Below, piece by piece: positions 52,356 through 62,966 of a stretch of DNA of 64,000 nt. This DNA is from Mesonia sp. HuA40. GTDB lineage: Bacteria; Bacteroidota; Bacteroidia; Flavobacteriales; Flavobacteriaceae. The notes beneath the pieces are model-generated. The model saw only the letters and a program-made list of their open reading frames with translations. It was not told the DNA's origin and did not search any database. The position numbers and the translations under genes are program-made. The stretch lies in assembly GCF_008017835.1 (NCBI RefSeq), contig NZ_VRLT01000063.1:1-64000 (forward strand), written 5' to 3'. Positions within the stretch are counted from its first letter, which is position 1. The number at the start of each line of letters is the position of its first letter.

Positions 52356-52382
52356 GCACCCCAAAATTTGGGGTGTTTTTTT
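52356..52382. terminator. Terminator between ytxH and the APP1-like gene
   Basis: CACCCCAAA pairs with TTTGGGGTG and ends in a T run on the forward strand. The reverse gene also ends here, so it may act in both directions. Confidence 0.75.
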
Positions 52383-53340
52383 ATAGCCTATTTTGACTGT
52401 GTTCAACTGCTTCTTTACTTGATTTAAAGTATAGAGCACATACCCCAAGATTACTCATATTGCCTATTATTTTTTCAATATTTTCTTTTTTATTTTGATT
52501 GGTTTGCCTGATGTAAACAGCATATATATTGGCCGGAAAAATCTTTATTATATCTTGATAAATTTGCGCATCTTTTTGTGAATCGTCACCTAAAAGAACA
52601 AATTTCAATTCGGGATAAAACTCTACTATGTGTCTAATTTTATAAAACTTGTGTTGATGATCACCTCTGCCTGTTTTAATAAAATCCCGTAAACCGTTTT
52701 TAATCGCTTTTAATTGAAATACACCTTTTGGCAGCCCATGCAAATCCGTAAAGGAACTTATAAAATTATATAAATTCCACTCACTGCTACTCACATAAAA
52801 AAAAGCATTGTGTTTATTTTGATCCTCTCTACCTAGTTTTTCTAGTTCTCGATAATGATTAACCACCCCAGTAAAAACTTTTCGCTTGTATAAGTTTTTG
52901 GTAAGCATAACATAAAGTTTTTTAAAAAAACTACTGGAATGGGAAATTAAAAATGTATCATCAATGTCTGAAATAACACCATATTCTCCAGGATATGGCT
53001 TTATAAATTCGCCTTTTTTACTTAATGTCTGTTTTTCATCATTCACTGTGACCTTGAAAGTATGCCAACCAGAACTTAAACTTTTTTCATAGGGAATCAT
53101 CACTCGAAAATGTCCATCGTCTAACGTCTTAGTCGTCTGCTTTATATTGCCAAAGCTTATTGTAATTGAGATATTAGCCAATGTTTTTACTCTAAACATT
53201 TGAAAAACCTGTTTAGCATGCTTCCATCCCTTTAGATCTAATTTAAATATGTCTGGCGTATGTTTTTCAAATACATGCCCCATTATCAAGATCTTCCTTT
53301 GGTTGGCGTAACCTCTATAAATTTTTAAATCTTTTGGCAT
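52381..53340 (-). CDS. APP1-like phosphatidate phosphatase family protein (DUF2183)
   Basis: The 319-residue protein contains the DUF2183/APP1 catalytic domain. A HAD-like DxDxT motif is GVISDIDDTFLISHSS (about 143-158), followed by YRKREL-type helices (FTGVVNHYRELEKLG) and YVSSSEWNLYNFI. GRGDHQHKFYKI and KFVLLGDDSQKDAQIYQDII complete the site. The N-terminal 130 residues are beta-rich. The yeast relative APP1 dephosphorylates phosphatidic acid to diacylglycerol; the same reaction is inferred here. It is transcribed divergently from a diacylglycerol-kinase-family gene, 69 nt away. No signal peptide is visible. Confidence 0.87.
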   Translation of the reverse strand: MPKDLKIYRGYANQRKILIMGHVFEKHTPDIFKLDLKGWKHAKQVFQMFRVKTLANISITISFGNIKQTTKTLDDGHFRVMIPYEKSLSSGWHTFKVTVNDEKQTLSKKGEFIKPYPGEYGVISDIDDTFLISHSSSFFKKLYVMLTKNLYKRKVFTGVVNHYRELEKLGREDQNKHNAFFYVSSSEWNLYNFISSFTDLHGLPKGVFQLKAIKNGLRDFIKTGRGDHQHKFYKIRHIVEFYPELKFVLLGDDSQKDAQIYQDIIKIFPANIYAVYIRQTNQNKKENIEKIIGNMSNLGVCALYFKSSKEAVEHSQNRL

Positions 53341-53409
53341 TCCGTAAAGATATTATTAAGATGATGTGTCAAGTTTTATAACTAACTTTAAAATTAAAAT
53401 TAAGCTTGT

Positions 53410-54270
53410 ATGGCCATACTACTCATTTTAAACCCAATAAGTGGTGATATTAATAAAAGTTACTTTTTAAAAGTATTAAAAAATAAATTAGGTAAAAAGG
53501 TCAAGACGTTAAACATTTTTAAAACCACTGGAAAAAATGACTTAGAGCATCTAAAGAGACATTTTCAAGACCATACTTATAAAAAAGTTCTAGTGGCAGG
53601 AGGAGATGGCACCGTAAAATTAGCGGCAGAATGCTTGATGAATACTTCAATCCCTATAGGAATTATTCCGCTAGGATCGGCCAACGGTTTAGCTACAGAT
53701 TTAGAACTACCTACTTCAATAAATTCTAGTATAGATATCGCGTTGGGTGAGAATGCAAGAAAGATTGATGCTATGTTTTTAAATGAAAATTTGGGTTTAC
53801 ATATAAGTGATTTAGGCATTAATGCGTCACTTATAAAGACTTATGAGCAGTCTAGCGTTCGCGGTAAACTAGGCTACATATTTGCGGGTATCCCTACCCT
53901 ATTAAATAATAAAAATCCGCAAAATTTTAGCATTGAAACCAATGACCAGAAATTAACGAGGCGCGGTATTATGTTAGGAATTGCTAATAGTAGACGGTAT
54001 GGTACCGGTGCTTTAGTCAATCCTGAAGGGATTATCGATGATGGCTATTTTGAATTATTAATTTTTAAGGAGTTGAATGTAAAAGAGATTATTAAGACCC
54101 TAAGGGGTGAAAAAAGCCATAATTCCTCATTTCTAGAAATCATCTCTTGTCAGCAAGCTAAAATTTATTGTGAGACACCTATAGACTTTCAAATTGATGG
54201 TGAATATTTAGGCGAAGTAAGCTCTGTAGAAATAAAAATAAAACAAAAAGCTTTAAATATTATGATATAG
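53410..54270 (+). CDS. Diacylglycerol/lipid kinase family protein (YegS/DgkB-like)
   Basis: The 286-residue cytoplasmic protein has the lipid kinase fold: ILLILNPISGDINKSYFLKV, the nucleotide site VLVAGGDGTVKLAAECLM, IPLGSANGLATDLELP, and the C-terminal beta-domain with NPEGIIDDGYFELLIFKE and PIDFQIDGEYLGEV. Members phosphorylate diacylglycerol, phosphatidylglycerol or sphingoid lipids; the substrate is not predictable here. It diverges from a phosphatidate-phosphatase-like gene, so the pair could run opposite directions of one lipid step. Confidence 0.9.
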   Translation: MAILLILNPISGDINKSYFLKVLKNKLGKKVKTLNIFKTTGKNDLEHLKRHFQDHTYKKVLVAGGDGTVKLAAECLMNTSIPIGIIPLGSANGLATDLELPTSINSSIDIALGENARKIDAMFLNENLGLHISDLGINASLIKTYEQSSVRGKLGYIFAGIPTLLNNKNPQNFSIETNDQKLTRRGIMLGIANSRRYGTGALVNPEGIIDDGYFELLIFKELNVKEIIKTLRGEKSHNSSFLEIISCQQAKIYCETPIDFQIDGEYLGEVSSVEIKIKQKALNIMI

Positions 54271-54349: not shown

Positions 54350-55165
54350 ATGAAAAATGCAATATTAATTACCAATTTCATTTTGCTGATTTTATTTAAC
54401 TCATGCAAAGAAAATCAAACGAACAAAAATGAGGAAGTAAAAAATCCTCATGAAGAAGAGCAAGTTACCGTTGTCAAGGATGATATTAATTTAACTAAGC
54501 TTCAAAATTCACCCAAATTTGAAGATGCTAAATTACAAATGAAAATTCCTGAAACAAATATCCTTAAAGCAGGAGATAATATTTTTTCTTTTAAAGTCGA
54601 AAATTATGAATTAGGCGTAACTACCGAAACTGCTCAAGATTTAGGACTTGCAAACTCTAAAAAAGGACAGCACGTACATTTTATTTTAAATAACAATCCG
54701 TACTCGGCCCACTATGAAGAACAGTTTTCAAAAAATTTAGAAGCGGGTGAACATACAGTATTAGCCTTTTTATCACGTTCTTATCACGAATCTGTTAAAA
54801 ATAAGGATGCGTTTATACTAAAGAAAATTAGAGTAGGAGAAATTACCTCAGACAACCAGTTAGATTTCAACGTAGATAAACCGCATTTGTTTTATAGCCG
54901 ACCAAAAGGAACTTATTCAGGTAAGGACACCAAGCGCATTCTACTTGATTTTTATTTGGCTAATGCAGATTTAAGTGAAGATGGATTTAAAGTAAAGGCT
55001 AAAATCAACGGACAAGAATTTATGATTACTGAATGGGTACCTTATGTTATTGAAGGTTTAAAAATGGGTGAAACTACAATAGAACTAAACTTTTTAGATA
55101 AAGACAATAATATGGTTGATAGCCCATATAACCCTGTAAAAAGGACTATTATACTTGAAGAGTAA
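54350..55165 (+). CDS. Lipoprotein of unknown function
   Basis: The 271-residue protein has a lipoprotein signal (NAILITNFILLILFNSC, lipidated Cys19) and a Glu/Lys/Asn-rich linker (about 22-50). The mature part is beta-rich with a duplicated pattern: LKAGDNIFSFKVENYELGVT with HVHFILNNNPYSAHYEE, and KRILLDFYLANADLSEDGFK with KAKINGQEFMITEWVPYVIE. The duplication suggests two similar domains. No enzyme motif is visible. The name phosphopeptide-binding protein given to some homologues is not supported by anything I see. A terminator follows. Confidence 0.8.
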   Translation: MKNAILITNFILLILFNSCKENQTNKNEEVKNPHEEEQVTVVKDDINLTKLQNSPKFEDAKLQMKIPETNILKAGDNIFSFKVENYELGVTTETAQDLGLANSKKGQHVHFILNNNPYSAHYEEQFSKNLEAGEHTVLAFLSRSYHESVKNKDAFILKKIRVGEITSDNQLDFNVDKPHLFYSRPKGTYSGKDTKRILLDFYLANADLSEDGFKVKAKINGQEFMITEWVPYVIEGLKMGETTIELNFLDKDNNMVDSPYNPVKRTIILEE

Positions 55166-55258: not shown

Positions 55259-56446
55259 ATGAACCCTTCTGCGAATGGGTGGATTAATAAGCATCTCCAC
55301 AATCTAGAAAACAACGATTCTTTTTTTAAACAATCACCAGAGCAGTTTTACATCAAACTGCGTAGCACTGGATTTATATATGCTAATAATTTGAAAACGT
55401 TATCGGGTTTTATAAGTGATAAACTTAACTTTAGTAGTGAAGAAATAACAAAAATCAATATATTAGAGTCTTTAGTCTATATTTATGTTCATCAAAAGAA
55501 GCGTTTAATTCACCAAGCATTTTATGAGGATTTGCTTGGCTTTTATGCTACTATCAATGAAACTCCAAAAAGTTATTTCCATTTTTTAAAGTTTAAGACC
55601 AATCCAGCATCCCAAATCGAGGGCATTATCCAAGAGCGTATTCAAATAAATAATTCAGTTTTCAAAAAAAACTTAAGCAGATTAATTACCAATGCTCTTT
55701 TATTTGTTGATGTGTTGGCTTTTCAAGAATACCTTACCAACCCACAAAACACCAGCAACTATTATAAAAACTTTGAAAAATTAATCGCTGAAATAGTATA
55801 TAATTCATTTAAAGCCAAAACCAATCCTAACAAATATGACCATTTAGTGCTAGAAACCTTAAAGAATTCATTTCGCTTTTTGGCACTAGACCTCAACCAA
55901 AAACAAAATTTTACTGGTCGCCTCACAGATGATTTTATAGAAAAGCTATATTTAATGGATATAGCCTGTGTAACGGTTTTTAATGATGAAGAAATTGATA
56001 ACGATGAAAGAAGCTACCTATTTAAATTGGGGCACCAATTGAATTTAAGTGAACACAACACTAATAAAGCTTTAAATGCGATGCACGATTTTTTTAATTT
56101 ATTTAGCGATAAAATAAGCTACTTTCAAGAGTCTAATGCCTTAAACAACTTATACCAAAATACAAACAGAATGGTAAAGCTGTTAGTATTAAGAAATAAA
56201 AGCAGAATTCTGCAAGAACTTACAGAGAGTAAAGAGTTAGTTGCTCTGCTAGGCAAATCTACTTATTCTGAACTAAGTTTAGCTGAACGCAAAAAAGTAA
56301 AAACTCAATTGTTAGATATTTGCAAAACGGTACCTTCTTTAGCTATATTTATTTTACCAGGAGGAAGCGTTTTATTACCCATTTTAATAAAGTTTATTCC
56401 GCAATTACTACCTTCAGCATTTAACGAAAATCGGATAGATAATTAA
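55259..56446 (+). CDS. LETM1-related protein
   Basis: The 395-residue protein is largely helical with no signal peptide. The C-terminal 80 residues carry the LETM1-like segment KSRILQELTESKELVALLGK, ELSLAERKKVKTQLLDICKT, then PSLAIFILPGGSVLLPILIK and FIPQLLPSAF. The last part is a single hydrophobic segment with the PGGxxLLPI signature. A TerB-like acidic stretch (VTVFNDEEIDNDERSYLFKL, about 240-260) lies before it. I recall flavobacterial homologues named LETM1-related biofilm-associated protein. Eukaryotic LETM1 takes part in mitochondrial cation/proton exchange. Two small membrane protein genes follow on the same strand. Confidence 0.82.
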   Translation: MNPSANGWINKHLHNLENNDSFFKQSPEQFYIKLRSTGFIYANNLKTLSGFISDKLNFSSEEITKINILESLVYIYVHQKKRLIHQAFYEDLLGFYATINETPKSYFHFLKFKTNPASQIEGIIQERIQINNSVFKKNLSRLITNALLFVDVLAFQEYLTNPQNTSNYYKNFEKLIAEIVYNSFKAKTNPNKYDHLVLETLKNSFRFLALDLNQKQNFTGRLTDDFIEKLYLMDIACVTVFNDEEIDNDERSYLFKLGHQLNLSEHNTNKALNAMHDFFNLFSDKISYFQESNALNNLYQNTNRMVKLLVLRNKSRILQELTESKELVALLGKSTYSELSLAERKKVKTQLLDICKTVPSLAIFILPGGSVLLPILIKFIPQLLPSAFNENRIDN

Positions 56447-56516
56447 TACAATAAAAACCATCACCTTGCATCATCAACAGCAAACCAATATTTTTTTTAA
56501 AACTCTGTTGAAAAAT

Positions 56517-57056
56517 ATGAGTTTAATTACTTTATTAAGTGTTTTTTTAATCCAATACCTGTTTCTCTACCATATTATAATCGATGAGAACAACAATTGG
56601 TTTACAGCAGTATTTTGTTTGGCTCTTTGCCTATTAATAGGCCTCGCCTACGCCTACTTTTTTCTAAGAAAATTAACCTTTATTCTAATGAGTTTTACCA
56701 ATATCTTCGGATTGATGGGAGCGGCATTATTAACCAGTTTTCTCAATATAGAAATGGGTTTGGGAGCCGTAGTAAGCTCGGCTGGCTTAGGTAGTTTAAT
56801 TAGTTTTATACCTACTAAATCAGTAAAAAATTTAGATCTAGACAACTTAAAATTGGCTATGTACTGTGGTTCGTTCATAGGTATGGGTAGCAACACTTTA
56901 TCGCAAGACTACGTGTTTATTGCCCTAGCTTCTTTTATAAGCGGTTTGTATTTTTGCTTATCTGGCAATTGGCTAAATGGTTTTGGGGGAAAGCTCGGCA
57001 CAATAGCCTTTACAGGGGTAGCCTACGCCCTTTTCATTAATTTTCTAACCACCTAA
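56517..57056 (+). CDS. Small multi-pass membrane protein, partner of the next gene
   Basis: From the ATG at 56517 the product has 179 residues. A TTG at 56466 in the same frame would add 17 residues and cannot be excluded. It has about six hydrophobic helices, including LITLLSVFLIQYLFLYHIII, AVFCLALCLLIGLAYAYFFL and VFIALASFISGLYFCLSGNW. Motifs GSFIGM (118-123) and NGFGGKLGT (154-162) recur in the downstream protein with the same spacing, so the two are paralogous. No family is recognised. It lies between the LETM1-related gene and its paralogue; the 3-nt gap to the latter implies co-translation. Confidence 0.72.
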   Translation: MSLITLLSVFLIQYLFLYHIIIDENNNWFTAVFCLALCLLIGLAYAYFFLRKLTFILMSFTNIFGLMGAALLTSFLNIEMGLGAVVSSAGLGSLISFIPTKSVKNLDLDNLKLAMYCGSFIGMGSNTLSQDYVFIALASFISGLYFCLSGNWLNGFGGKLGTIAFTGVAYALFINFLTT

Positions 57057-57059
57057 AAA

Positions 57060-57467
57060 ATGCTAATACTTTATTTTATCACAAGTATTTTTGGCGCTTT
57101 ACTGCCCTACTATTTAAGTCGCAAGCACCAACTAGACGTTATAAAAGCTTCGGCCCTACCCAGTTTGGCCGTAGGTCTTATTGCTCTTATAGCCGAAAAT
57201 AGTTACAATGCCCCCATTGCCTATGAGCTCTCTTTGGTCTTTTATGGAGCAAGTTTTGTTGGCATGGTAAATTATCGTGTTTTACCTAAATATTATCAAG
57301 TCGCTTTATGCGGATTTATTTTTAGCATCTTATACCTAAATGCAAGTAGCTTTTTTAATGGTTTTGGTGGTGGGTTAGGTACAGCAGCTGCAATTACAAC
57401 TATTGCCCTTTACGGATTAATTAAGATACCCGTTTTAAAGCGACTAGTGTTAAAAAGGGATAAATAA
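57060..57467 (+). CDS. Small multi-pass membrane protein, paralogue of the preceding gene
   Basis: The 135-residue product has about four or five hydrophobic segments (LILYFITSIFGALLPYYL; ALPSLAVGLIALIAE; ELSLVFYGASFVGMV; VALCGFIFSILYLN; AAAITTIALYGLIKI). It carries GASFVGM (63-69) and NGFGGGLGT (100-108). The distance from M69 to N100 equals that between the matching residues of the upstream protein. The pair may form a heteromeric membrane complex, which is inference. It ends in a basic tail (KRLVLKRDK), likely cytoplasmic. It converges on the ndh gene with a 9-nt gap. Confidence 0.74.
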   Translation: MLILYFITSIFGALLPYYLSRKHQLDVIKASALPSLAVGLIALIAENSYNAPIAYELSLVFYGASFVGMVNYRVLPKYYQVALCGFIFSILYLNASSFFNGFGGGLGTAAAITTIALYGLIKIPVLKRLVLKRDK

Positions 57468-61612: not shown

Positions 61613-62349
61613 TACGTCTTATTTTTAGTTTCTTGATTTTATCTCTTTGTGCTTGTCAAAAAAATAAATCTACTTCGGTTGAACAAGATACGGAACAAAT
61701 CCGTAAAGAAAAACGCGAACAGATTAAAAGAGATAGCTTGCTTAAAGCCGTCGAAATACCTAAAGGTGGAAATAATATCAGTGTAGATCTAGATCAAATT
61801 AAAACCTTATCACAAGAAGAGCTGAAACCATTTCTAAGAAAATACGGCTCAAATAATCCTGAAACACTGGTGAAAATTACTACAGAATTTGGTGATATTA
61901 AGGTAAATTTGTACGCCGACACCCCGTTGCACCGCGCTAACTTTATTCGTTTGGTTAAATTAGGATATTTTAATTCTAGTTTTTTTCATAGAGTGGCCCA
62001 GGGTTTTGTGGTTCAGGGAGGAAATAGCGATCTTCAAGAAACGCATAAGTTTAGGGCTAAGATTGGAAGTTATTTAATTCCTAACGAAATCAAAAAGAAG
62101 TATACCCACAAACGAGGTGCTTTTTCTGCTGCGAAATATAGTGAACAAAATGTAAGTAAAGCTTCCTCTCCTTTTGAATTTTTTATAGTACAAAGCCAAC
62201 GTGGCGCACATCATTTAGATAAAGATCATACGGTTTTTGGCGAGGTGGTGGAAGGAATGCAGGTAGTCGATAAAATTGCTGCTGTACCAGTTGACCAAAG
62301 CGAATGGCCTATCAAAAACATTTTCATTAAGGCAGAGGTAATCCGTTAA
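61606..62349 (+). CDS. Cyclophilin-type peptidyl-prolyl isomerase lipoprotein
   Basis: The 247-residue protein has a lipoprotein signal (SLRLIFSFLILSLCAC, lipidated Cys17) and a charged linker (EQIRKEKREQIKRDSLLKAV). The cyclophilin domain covers about 80-245: TEFGDIKVNLYADTPLHRAN, FHRVAQGFVVQGGNSD, FEFFIVQSQRGAHHLDKDHT and [19 protein letters not shown]. It helps fold exported proteins at the periplasmic side of a membrane. The start is fixed by the signal peptide even though it overlaps the divergent Nudix start. The 3' end overlaps the convergent TRIC-like gene by 4 nt. Confidence 0.93.
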   Translation: MSLRLIFSFLILSLCACQKNKSTSVEQDTEQIRKEKREQIKRDSLLKAVEIPKGGNNISVDLDQIKTLSQEELKPFLRKYGSNNPETLVKITTEFGDIKVNLYADTPLHRANFIRLVKLGYFNSSFFHRVAQGFVVQGGNSDLQETHKFRAKIGSYLIPNEIKKKYTHKRGAFSAAKYSEQNVSKASSPFEFFIVQSQRGAHHLDKDHTVFGEVVEGMQVVDKIAAVPVDQSEWPIKNIFIKAEVIR

Positions 62350-62966
62350 TCACTGGCTTCATCTGCTTGATATATAGAAGGCAATTGCAGTTTAAAAATC
62401 ACGGCTAGTAAACGAACTACAATCACAACACTACCTGCGATTATAGCATTAAAACTTACCAATACCCCTATATAATTTAATGCAAAGTAAACAAGACCAC
62501 CTGCTATGCATGCAGTTGCATAAATTTCTTTTCTAAAAATTATAGGGATTTCATTACATAAAATATCTCGAAGCACTCCACCAAAACAAGCACTTATGGT
62601 ACCCACCGCTATACAAATAGGAGCCGGCAACTCTAGCATAATTGCTTTTTGCATACCTATTACGGTATAAAGACCTATACCAATAGTATCAAAGAGAAAT
62701 AAAGAACGTCTAAAATATACCAATTTAGACCTAAATATAGCGGCAAAAAGCGTACTGGCTATAATTACATACAAATAAGTAAGGTTATGCATCCAGGCAA
62801 TAGGCGCTTTAATTAGAATATCGCGCAGAGTCCCCCCTCCTACGGCCGTAATAAAGGCAATTATAAATATGCCAAACGCATCCATACGTTTTCTCATAGC
62901 TGTAAGCACCCCCGAAATTGCAAAAGCAATAGTACCCAAAATATCTAAATAAAGTTGAAAATCCAT
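62346..62966 (-). CDS. Trimeric intracellular cation channel family protein (UPF0126)
   Basis: The 206-residue membrane protein has seven hydrophobic helices in a duplicated arrangement. The repeated GGGxLRD motifs are AVGGGTLRDILIKAPIAWMH and CFGGVLRDILCNEIPIIFRK. This is the UPF0126/TRIC signature. Bacterial members of known structure are homotrimeric potassium-permeable channels; the ion here is inferred. It follows the RDD gene with a 1-nt gap, so the two are likely co-expressed. Confidence 0.93.
   Translation of the reverse strand: MDFQLYLDILGTIAFAISGVLTAMRKRMDAFGIFIIAFITAVGGGTLRDILIKAPIAWMHNLTYLYVIIASTLFAAIFRSKLVYFRRSLFLFDTIGIGLYTVIGMQKAIMLELPAPICIAVGTISACFGGVLRDILCNEIPIIFRKEIYATACIAGGLVYFALNYIGVLVSFNAIIAGSVVIVVRLLAVIFKLQLPSIYQADEASD

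Follow-up and report, generated by a model that had tools for sequence, protein, structure and literature searches.

The window analysed here is a 64,000-nucleotide stretch of contig NZ_VRLT01000063.1 of Mesonia sp. HuA40. Between its positions 55259 and 57467, three open reading frames (ORFs) follow one another on the forward strand: gene 1, coding for a LETM1-related protein, and genes A and B, coding for two small membrane proteins (Table 1). Gene 1 and gene B begin with ATG and gene A with TTG, an internal ATG at 56517 being an alternative start that would give an A protein of 179 aa. The gap between gene 1 and A is 19 nt and that between A and B, which lie in the same frame, is 3 nt. An earlier sequence-only reading had placed a LETM1-like C-terminus (PGGSVLLPI) in the first of these genes and had described the other two, on the same strand and 3 nt apart, as paralogs. 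These points were confirmed, the layout by the ORFs, the C-terminus by its position at residues 367-375 of gene 1 together with a PF07766 match, and the paralogy by cross-hits between A and B (E ~4e-7) and by hhalign probabilities of 99.3-99.6%, the lower value extending over 113 columns. In comparison with the close relative G001 (locus L128), the differences at codon positions 1/2/3 amount to 35/15/105 in gene 1, 18/6/37 in A and 7/8/26 in B. Given this excess at the third position, the three ORFs look like coding genes under selection, and chance ORFs are unlikely.

Table 1. Coordinates of the genes and features of the locus in the window
Feature	Position	Strand	Basis
Gene 1, LETM1-related protein	55259..56446	+	NF040639, 433.6 bits, E 9.4e-130, residues 2-393 of 395
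TerB-like helical region, gene 1 residues 101-304	55559..56170	+	VIA-align; low to medium confidence
C-terminal proline-rich hydrophobic segment, gene 1 residues 357-388	56327..56422	+	PF07766 columns 1-53
Gene A, 196 aa, predicted 2 + 5 transmembrane helices	56466..57056	+	Model pLDDT 87.4, pTM 0.70; K/R bias 75/76
A signature 1, YCGSFIGM, end of helix c, predicted outer side	56862..56885	+	Y133, C134, G135, F137, G139, M140 invariant in 76/76
A signature 2, GFGGKLG, start of helix e, predicted inner side	56979..56999	+	G174, G175, K176, G178 invariant in 76/76
Gene B, 135 aa, five predicted transmembrane helices, basic C-terminal tail	57060..57467	+	Model; K/R bias 76/76; hhalign
B signature 1, GASFVGM, end of helix c, predicted inner side	57246..57266	+	G63, F66, G68, M69 invariant in 76/76
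B signature 2, GFGGGLG, start of helix e, predicted outer side	57360..57380	+	G103, G104, L106, G107 in 75/76

Three other parts of the window were also read. Upstream of gene 1, positions 54350-55165 encode a predicted lipoprotein with a weak N-terminal match to the BSAP5b pore-forming family, which at 18.3 bits, against a cut-off of 380, falls far short of membership. Further upstream (52381-54270), an APP1-type phosphatidate phosphatase on the reverse strand (PF09949, E 1.5e-43) and a YegS/DAGK-type lipid kinase on the forward strand are arranged divergently; these opposing lipid-phosphate enzymes are neighbours in most of the Mesonia relatives read. Downstream, at 62346-62966, lies a protein with two PF03458 repeats (the bacterial TRIC or 'glycine transporter' family), whose family is present in 27 of the 40 relatives searched.

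The LETM1-related protein

With its score set against the curated cut-off of 250 bits, gene 1 is a full-length member of NF040639, the NCBIfam family named 'LETM1-related biofilm-associated protein', and is therefore already catalogued; a search of the available literature found no paper behind the 'biofilm' of that name. The match to PF07766 (LETM1_RBD) reaches 34.0 bits, the cut-off being 25.3, and extends over residues 339-391, covering just 53 of the 229 profile columns. Among 395 sampled Bacteroidota genomes, gene 1 matches were found in 44, of which 36 were above the cut-off, all in the window organism's own family.

The structure model of gene 1 (pLDDT 76) was aligned by VIA-align with 2ou3_A, a tellurite resistance protein of COG3793 (Z 8.0, rmsd 4.8, 147 aligned residues), and with 2h5n_A (Z 7.1), the next unrelated row standing at Z 4.6; Foldseek matches to TerB-type structures had a TMt of about 0.5 and E-values above 3. 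The tail segment resembles the transmembrane segment of LETM1, and residues P359, P367, P374, K378, P381 and F388 are invariant in the 38 sequences compared. Gene 1 stops about seven residues after this segment, and the end is likewise close to it in all 38 sequences. Because the protein ends so shortly after the segment, it has no room for a ribosome-binding domain of the 14-3-3-like type found in Mdm38 (PMC6358941), which is absent at this place from all 38. In mouse LETM1, the transmembrane residue E221 has been reported as necessary for calcium flux (PMC5037442). No aspartate or glutamate occurs within gene 1 residues 357-388, and none in the aligned hydrophobic core of the 38 sequences.

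Thus, gene 1 has in common with LETM1/Mdm38 (SLC55) the proline-rich segment, but it differs in the predicted TerB-like domain placed in front, in the missing ribosome-binding domain and in the missing counterpart of E221. With both of the latter lacking, the ion-exchange chemistry of LETM1, from which the sequence-only reading had argued, is not transferable to gene 1. Gene 1 is read, with medium confidence, as a TerB-like soluble domain joined to a LETM1-type tail anchor, the protein being probably tail-anchored.

Linkage and origin of the adjacency

The order of the three genes had been taken as a functional sign, the LETM1-like protein and the membrane pair being proposed to form one ion-exchange or envelope machine. 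The common strand and the short gaps agree with this proposal, and so does the recurrence of the adjacency, possibly through a separate event, in Haloflavibacter putidus (G010; L099/L133). It was opposed by the survey of linkage, which comprised 60 relatives and one further genome (G227) from the phylum sample and yielded 18 genomes with both gene 1 and the pair. Gene 1 adjoins the pair in four of them (G000, G001, G012 and G010). In three others (G003, G007 and G015) the two lie 2.6-5.6 kb apart, and in G006 they are split by contig ends, with the same block and the same order implied, which brings the separated cases to four. In the other 10 genomes, including that from the phylum sample, they are unlinked. 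These counts give the outcome that the sequence-only reading had itself named as a refutation of its proposal.

Moreover, each is found without the other, the pair being present and gene 1 absent in G005 and G025. When the best 80 of 492 pair loci were read, just six had gene 1 within 6 kb, all in the Mesonia clade. The co-presence of gene 1 and the pair in family f1 was not significant (17/12/2/6, Fisher p 0.12, with shared ancestry uncorrected). As a separate observation, gene B of the pair in G005 (L095/L135), a Mesonia without the LETM1-like gene, seems frameshifted into two overlapping fragments in different frames, by either decay or an assembly error.

The usual neighbour of gene 1 is instead a LytTR gene, which was found in 19 of the 27 gene-1 loci read, including those of other genera. 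In G003, G007 and G015, a sigma factor, an anti-sigma factor and gene 1 are followed, on the opposite strand, by a LytTR response regulator, a 2TM protein and a 2TM histidine kinase, and then by a choice-of-anchor I secreted protein (uncalled in the G015 locus) and the pair; the family names of the intervening genes were checked in G003 (L093). In the gene-1 tree, G003 and G015 form the sister group of the window clade (G000, G001, G012), with support of 97/95. An ortholog of the kinase (61-100% identity) was found in G003, G007, G015 and G006, and a genome-wide search found none in G000, G001, G012, G010 or G005.

Since the LytTR gene stands near gene 1 in other genera too, the block appears to be the older neighbour, and since every genome with the adjacency is devoid of a kinase ortholog, the adjacency has the appearance of a scar left by a deletion. 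The simplest history is that a deletion of the LytTR/2TM-kinase block in this Mesonia lineage brought gene 1 beside the pair. The adjacency in G010, whose position in the tree is unsure (a long branch and an open fork), may reflect a second loss of the block. The linkage counts and the gene-order history led us to discard a functional LETM1-pair operon, and a single machine uniting these proteins is considered very improbable. The case also carries a caution, as adjacency can mislead when genes such as gene 1 and the pair come together through the loss of those between them. For NF040639 itself, the LytTR/2TM-kinase neighbourhood is a more promising functional lead than the A/B pair. At L093:3653-6106, a convergent LytTR regulator, 2TM proteins and a 2TM histidine kinase stand beside the LETM1-like gene.

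The A/B pair: distribution, topology and motifs

A and B share a homologous five-helix unit. A degenerate-pattern scan of GTDB contigs returned 492 stretches encoding such pairs, of which the best 80 were read. These came from Flavobacteriaceae, Pedobacter, Pontibacter, Chitinophagaceae, Saprospiraceae and one Desulfococcaceae assembly, and in 75 of the 80 both A and B were called as head-to-tail tandem ORFs. The distance from the A stop to the B start was mostly between -10 and +4 nt, a spacing that suggests translational coupling, so that the two genes are probably coupled. In the Desulfococcaceae assembly HSG9 (L154:5737-7150), the pair has a longer A (277 aa as called), and it represents either an inter-phylum transfer or assembly contamination.

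Outside Bacteroidota, a Pseudoalteromonas THAF3 plasmid carries an overlapping tandem A/B pair, and the haloarchaeon Natrinema zhouii encodes a single 325-aa protein whose first half matches A (98.5%) and whose second half matches B (97.2%). This natural fusion argues independently for a joint function of the two halves. The pair was detected in only 3 of the 395 sampled Bacteroidota genomes, a scattered presence which indicates that it is dispensable.

The topology was predicted from a model of the read-through A-B fusion (pLDDT 87.4, with a moderate pTM of 0.70), which gave two plus five helices for A and five for B, in line with hydropathy peaks fitting seven and five segments, respectively. 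The underlying alignment consisted of 12 fused rows, the other rows containing A only; this composition was used because MAFFT placed A rows onto B in a deep mixed alignment of A and B. Counts of lysine and arginine were then compared in 76 pairs. By these counts, the A unit is oriented N-in/C-out in 75 of the 76 and the B unit N-out/C-in in all 76. In the homologous loops, the number of pairs with more K/R in A and with more in B, respectively, was 0/72 for loop a-b, 74/0 for loop b-c and 1/66 for loop c-d. The loop limits were taken from the window model, and the loops of the window had been inspected beforehand, unlike those of the other 75 pairs. As the pair loci share ancestry and are not independent trials, counts are given instead of probabilities.

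An odd number of helices combined with reversed charges implies that the A unit would be N-in/C-out and the B unit N-out/C-in, and antiparallel packing is therefore to be expected. This reading of the pair as an antiparallel heteromer follows the general scheme described for inverted symmetry in membrane proteins (PMC3962082). The heteromeric membrane pair of the sequence-only reading is thereby supported and sharpened: it is a tandem, probably coupled pair of opposite predicted orientation, fused in one archaeon.

The conserved motifs of A and B are glycine-rich helix breaks at two places in each unit (Table 1). Further residues invariant in the 76 pairs are G109, A181 and F182 in A, and S31 in B. 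The two A motifs doubled as search patterns in GTDB, so that part of their invariance there follows from the search itself; they were kept equally in a 16-row set obtained from a whole-protein search and were largely kept in the archaeal and gammaproteobacterial relatives.

Relation to known families and proposed function

The searches of the pair against Pfam, NCBIfam, PADLOC and PHROGs returned nothing meaningful, those against PDB sequences nothing below E 0.06, and Foldseek against the PDB and viral models nothing at E 0.001. In the VIA structure comparison no row reached Z 8, the best being TRIC 5wuf (Z 7.6 over 101 residues), followed by RnfA 8ahx_A (Z 7.1), values in the range of common helix packing and equally compatible with a shared fold or with none. 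These weak structural rows, a shared architecture of five-helix halves encoded as tandem genes or fusions, and the string ASFVG(I/M)(I/V)S, common to the pair and ThrE_2, would suit a distant offshoot of one of the known antiparallel or two-part families (ThrE/YjjP-YjjB, YdcZ/DUF606, CrcB, RnfA/RnfE or TRIC). Such an origin would be compatible with the antiparallel reading, but the family would then not be new. Against it, hhalign gave at most 12.7%, over short stretches, with ThrE/ThrE_2, YdcZ/DUF606, CrcB, TRIC and RnfA/E, compared with 98.8% for the RnfA-RnfE control and 99.6% for A-B, and no Pfam hit was obtained in any member scanned. The ThrE2-ThrE1 control reached just 26.8%, so that the test is not very sensitive and leaves room for a distant ThrE link. 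On balance, descent from one of these families is judged unlikely.

Candidate by candidate, the YdcZ/DUF606 family (PF04657) is built of five-helix units. It occurs as single genes, as paired homologues of opposite orientation and as antiparallel two-domain fusions (Lolkema et al. 2008, as summarised in PMC3962082). The A/B pair resembles it in its five-helix units, its paired genes and its fusion, but differs in an hhalign value of at most 1.7% (12 members), the lack of a Pfam hit, other motifs and the two extra N-terminal helices of A. YjjP/YjjB and ThrE (PF06738, PF12821) function as two-gene or fused multi-helix membrane halves, a feature that the pair also displays. In contrast to YjjP and ThrE, A has no N-terminal soluble domain, hhalign gave at most 4.8% with its weak control, and the short ASFVG string is the sole shared feature; the ThrE_2 reading suggested by that string was set aside, the 4.8% extending over only 14 columns.

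RnfA/RnfE (RsxA/RsxE) and NqrD/NqrE are likewise homologous inner-membrane proteins, and the E. coli members YdgQ/YdgL are candidates for antiparallel heterodimers (PMC3962082). With them hhalign gave 0.1%, and Rnf works in a six-subunit redox complex whereas the pair stands alone. CrcB/Fluc and paired SMR proteins are small membrane proteins that form antiparallel dimers and are sometimes tandem paralogs, but they have four helices against five in the pair; a CrcB reading, prompted by a GF(C/G)GGL-like string, was rejected with a best hhalign value of 12.7% over 42 columns and no Pfam hit. Two tandem colony-spreading genes of Flavobacterium collinsii, described as glycosylation-related (PMC9950754), were set aside as different from the A/B pair. 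Overall, profile searches do not support membership in the families compared, and the pair would work in the manner of DUF606-type pairs and fusions.

The arrangement as an antiparallel paralogous pair is thus of a known kind, and the A/B family is widespread and unnamed and appears to be undescribed in the libraries searched. That A and B form an antiparallel two-subunit membrane protein is considered probable. They would be the two halves of one small inner-membrane protein, A (N-in/C-out) and B (N-out/C-in) packing in antiparallel fashion into a heterodimer or some multiple of one, related by inverted pseudo-symmetry. In this arrangement, the helix breaks conserved in A (YCGSFIGM, GGKLG) and in B (GASFVGM, GGGLG) would come together at the two opposite faces and border a common path, the first motif of A and the second of B facing one side, and the second motif of A, with its lysine, and the first of B facing the other. 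The invariant K176 of A would stand at the inner side of this path, and the LETM1-like neighbour would be a separate protein, outside the pair.

Transporters and channels typically show features of this kind, namely inverted five-helix halves, conserved glycine breaks and an invariant lysine. The likeliest role of the pair would hence be that of a small-solute or ion transporter or channel, and, taken by itself, such a function is favoured by a modest degree. A structural or regulatory membrane complex, acting as a scaffold or as a lipid or protease partner, would accord with the lack of a motif pointing to a substrate and with the neighbourhood of the pair, which in the best 80 of the 492 loci changes from genus to genus, consists of unrelated housekeeping genes and includes no conserved neighbour that names a substrate. 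The inverted halves, the glycine breaks and the lysine point the other way, and this alternative is regarded as rather doubtful. Homology, tandem coupling, fusion in the archaeal protein, charge reversal and motif conservation are what the data show; from these we infer the complex, its transport function and the role of K176.

On a broader scale, it is tentatively suggested, with less conviction than the antiparallel complex itself, that the pair could found a new, as yet unnamed superfamily of transporters or channels, defined by an obligate antiparallel heteromer of paralogous five-helix subunits, found in tandem in Bacteroidota, a gammaproteobacterium and Desulfococcaceae and fused in a haloarchaeon, with a fold absent from the PDB. 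The pair is probably a new transporter or channel. Antiparallel paralogous pairs stand midway between single genes of dual topology and transporters with fused inverted repeats, and a pair whose charges are clearly reversed, and which is known from numerous tandem copies and from a naturally fused protein in an archaeon, would add another independent case for the origin of such proteins.
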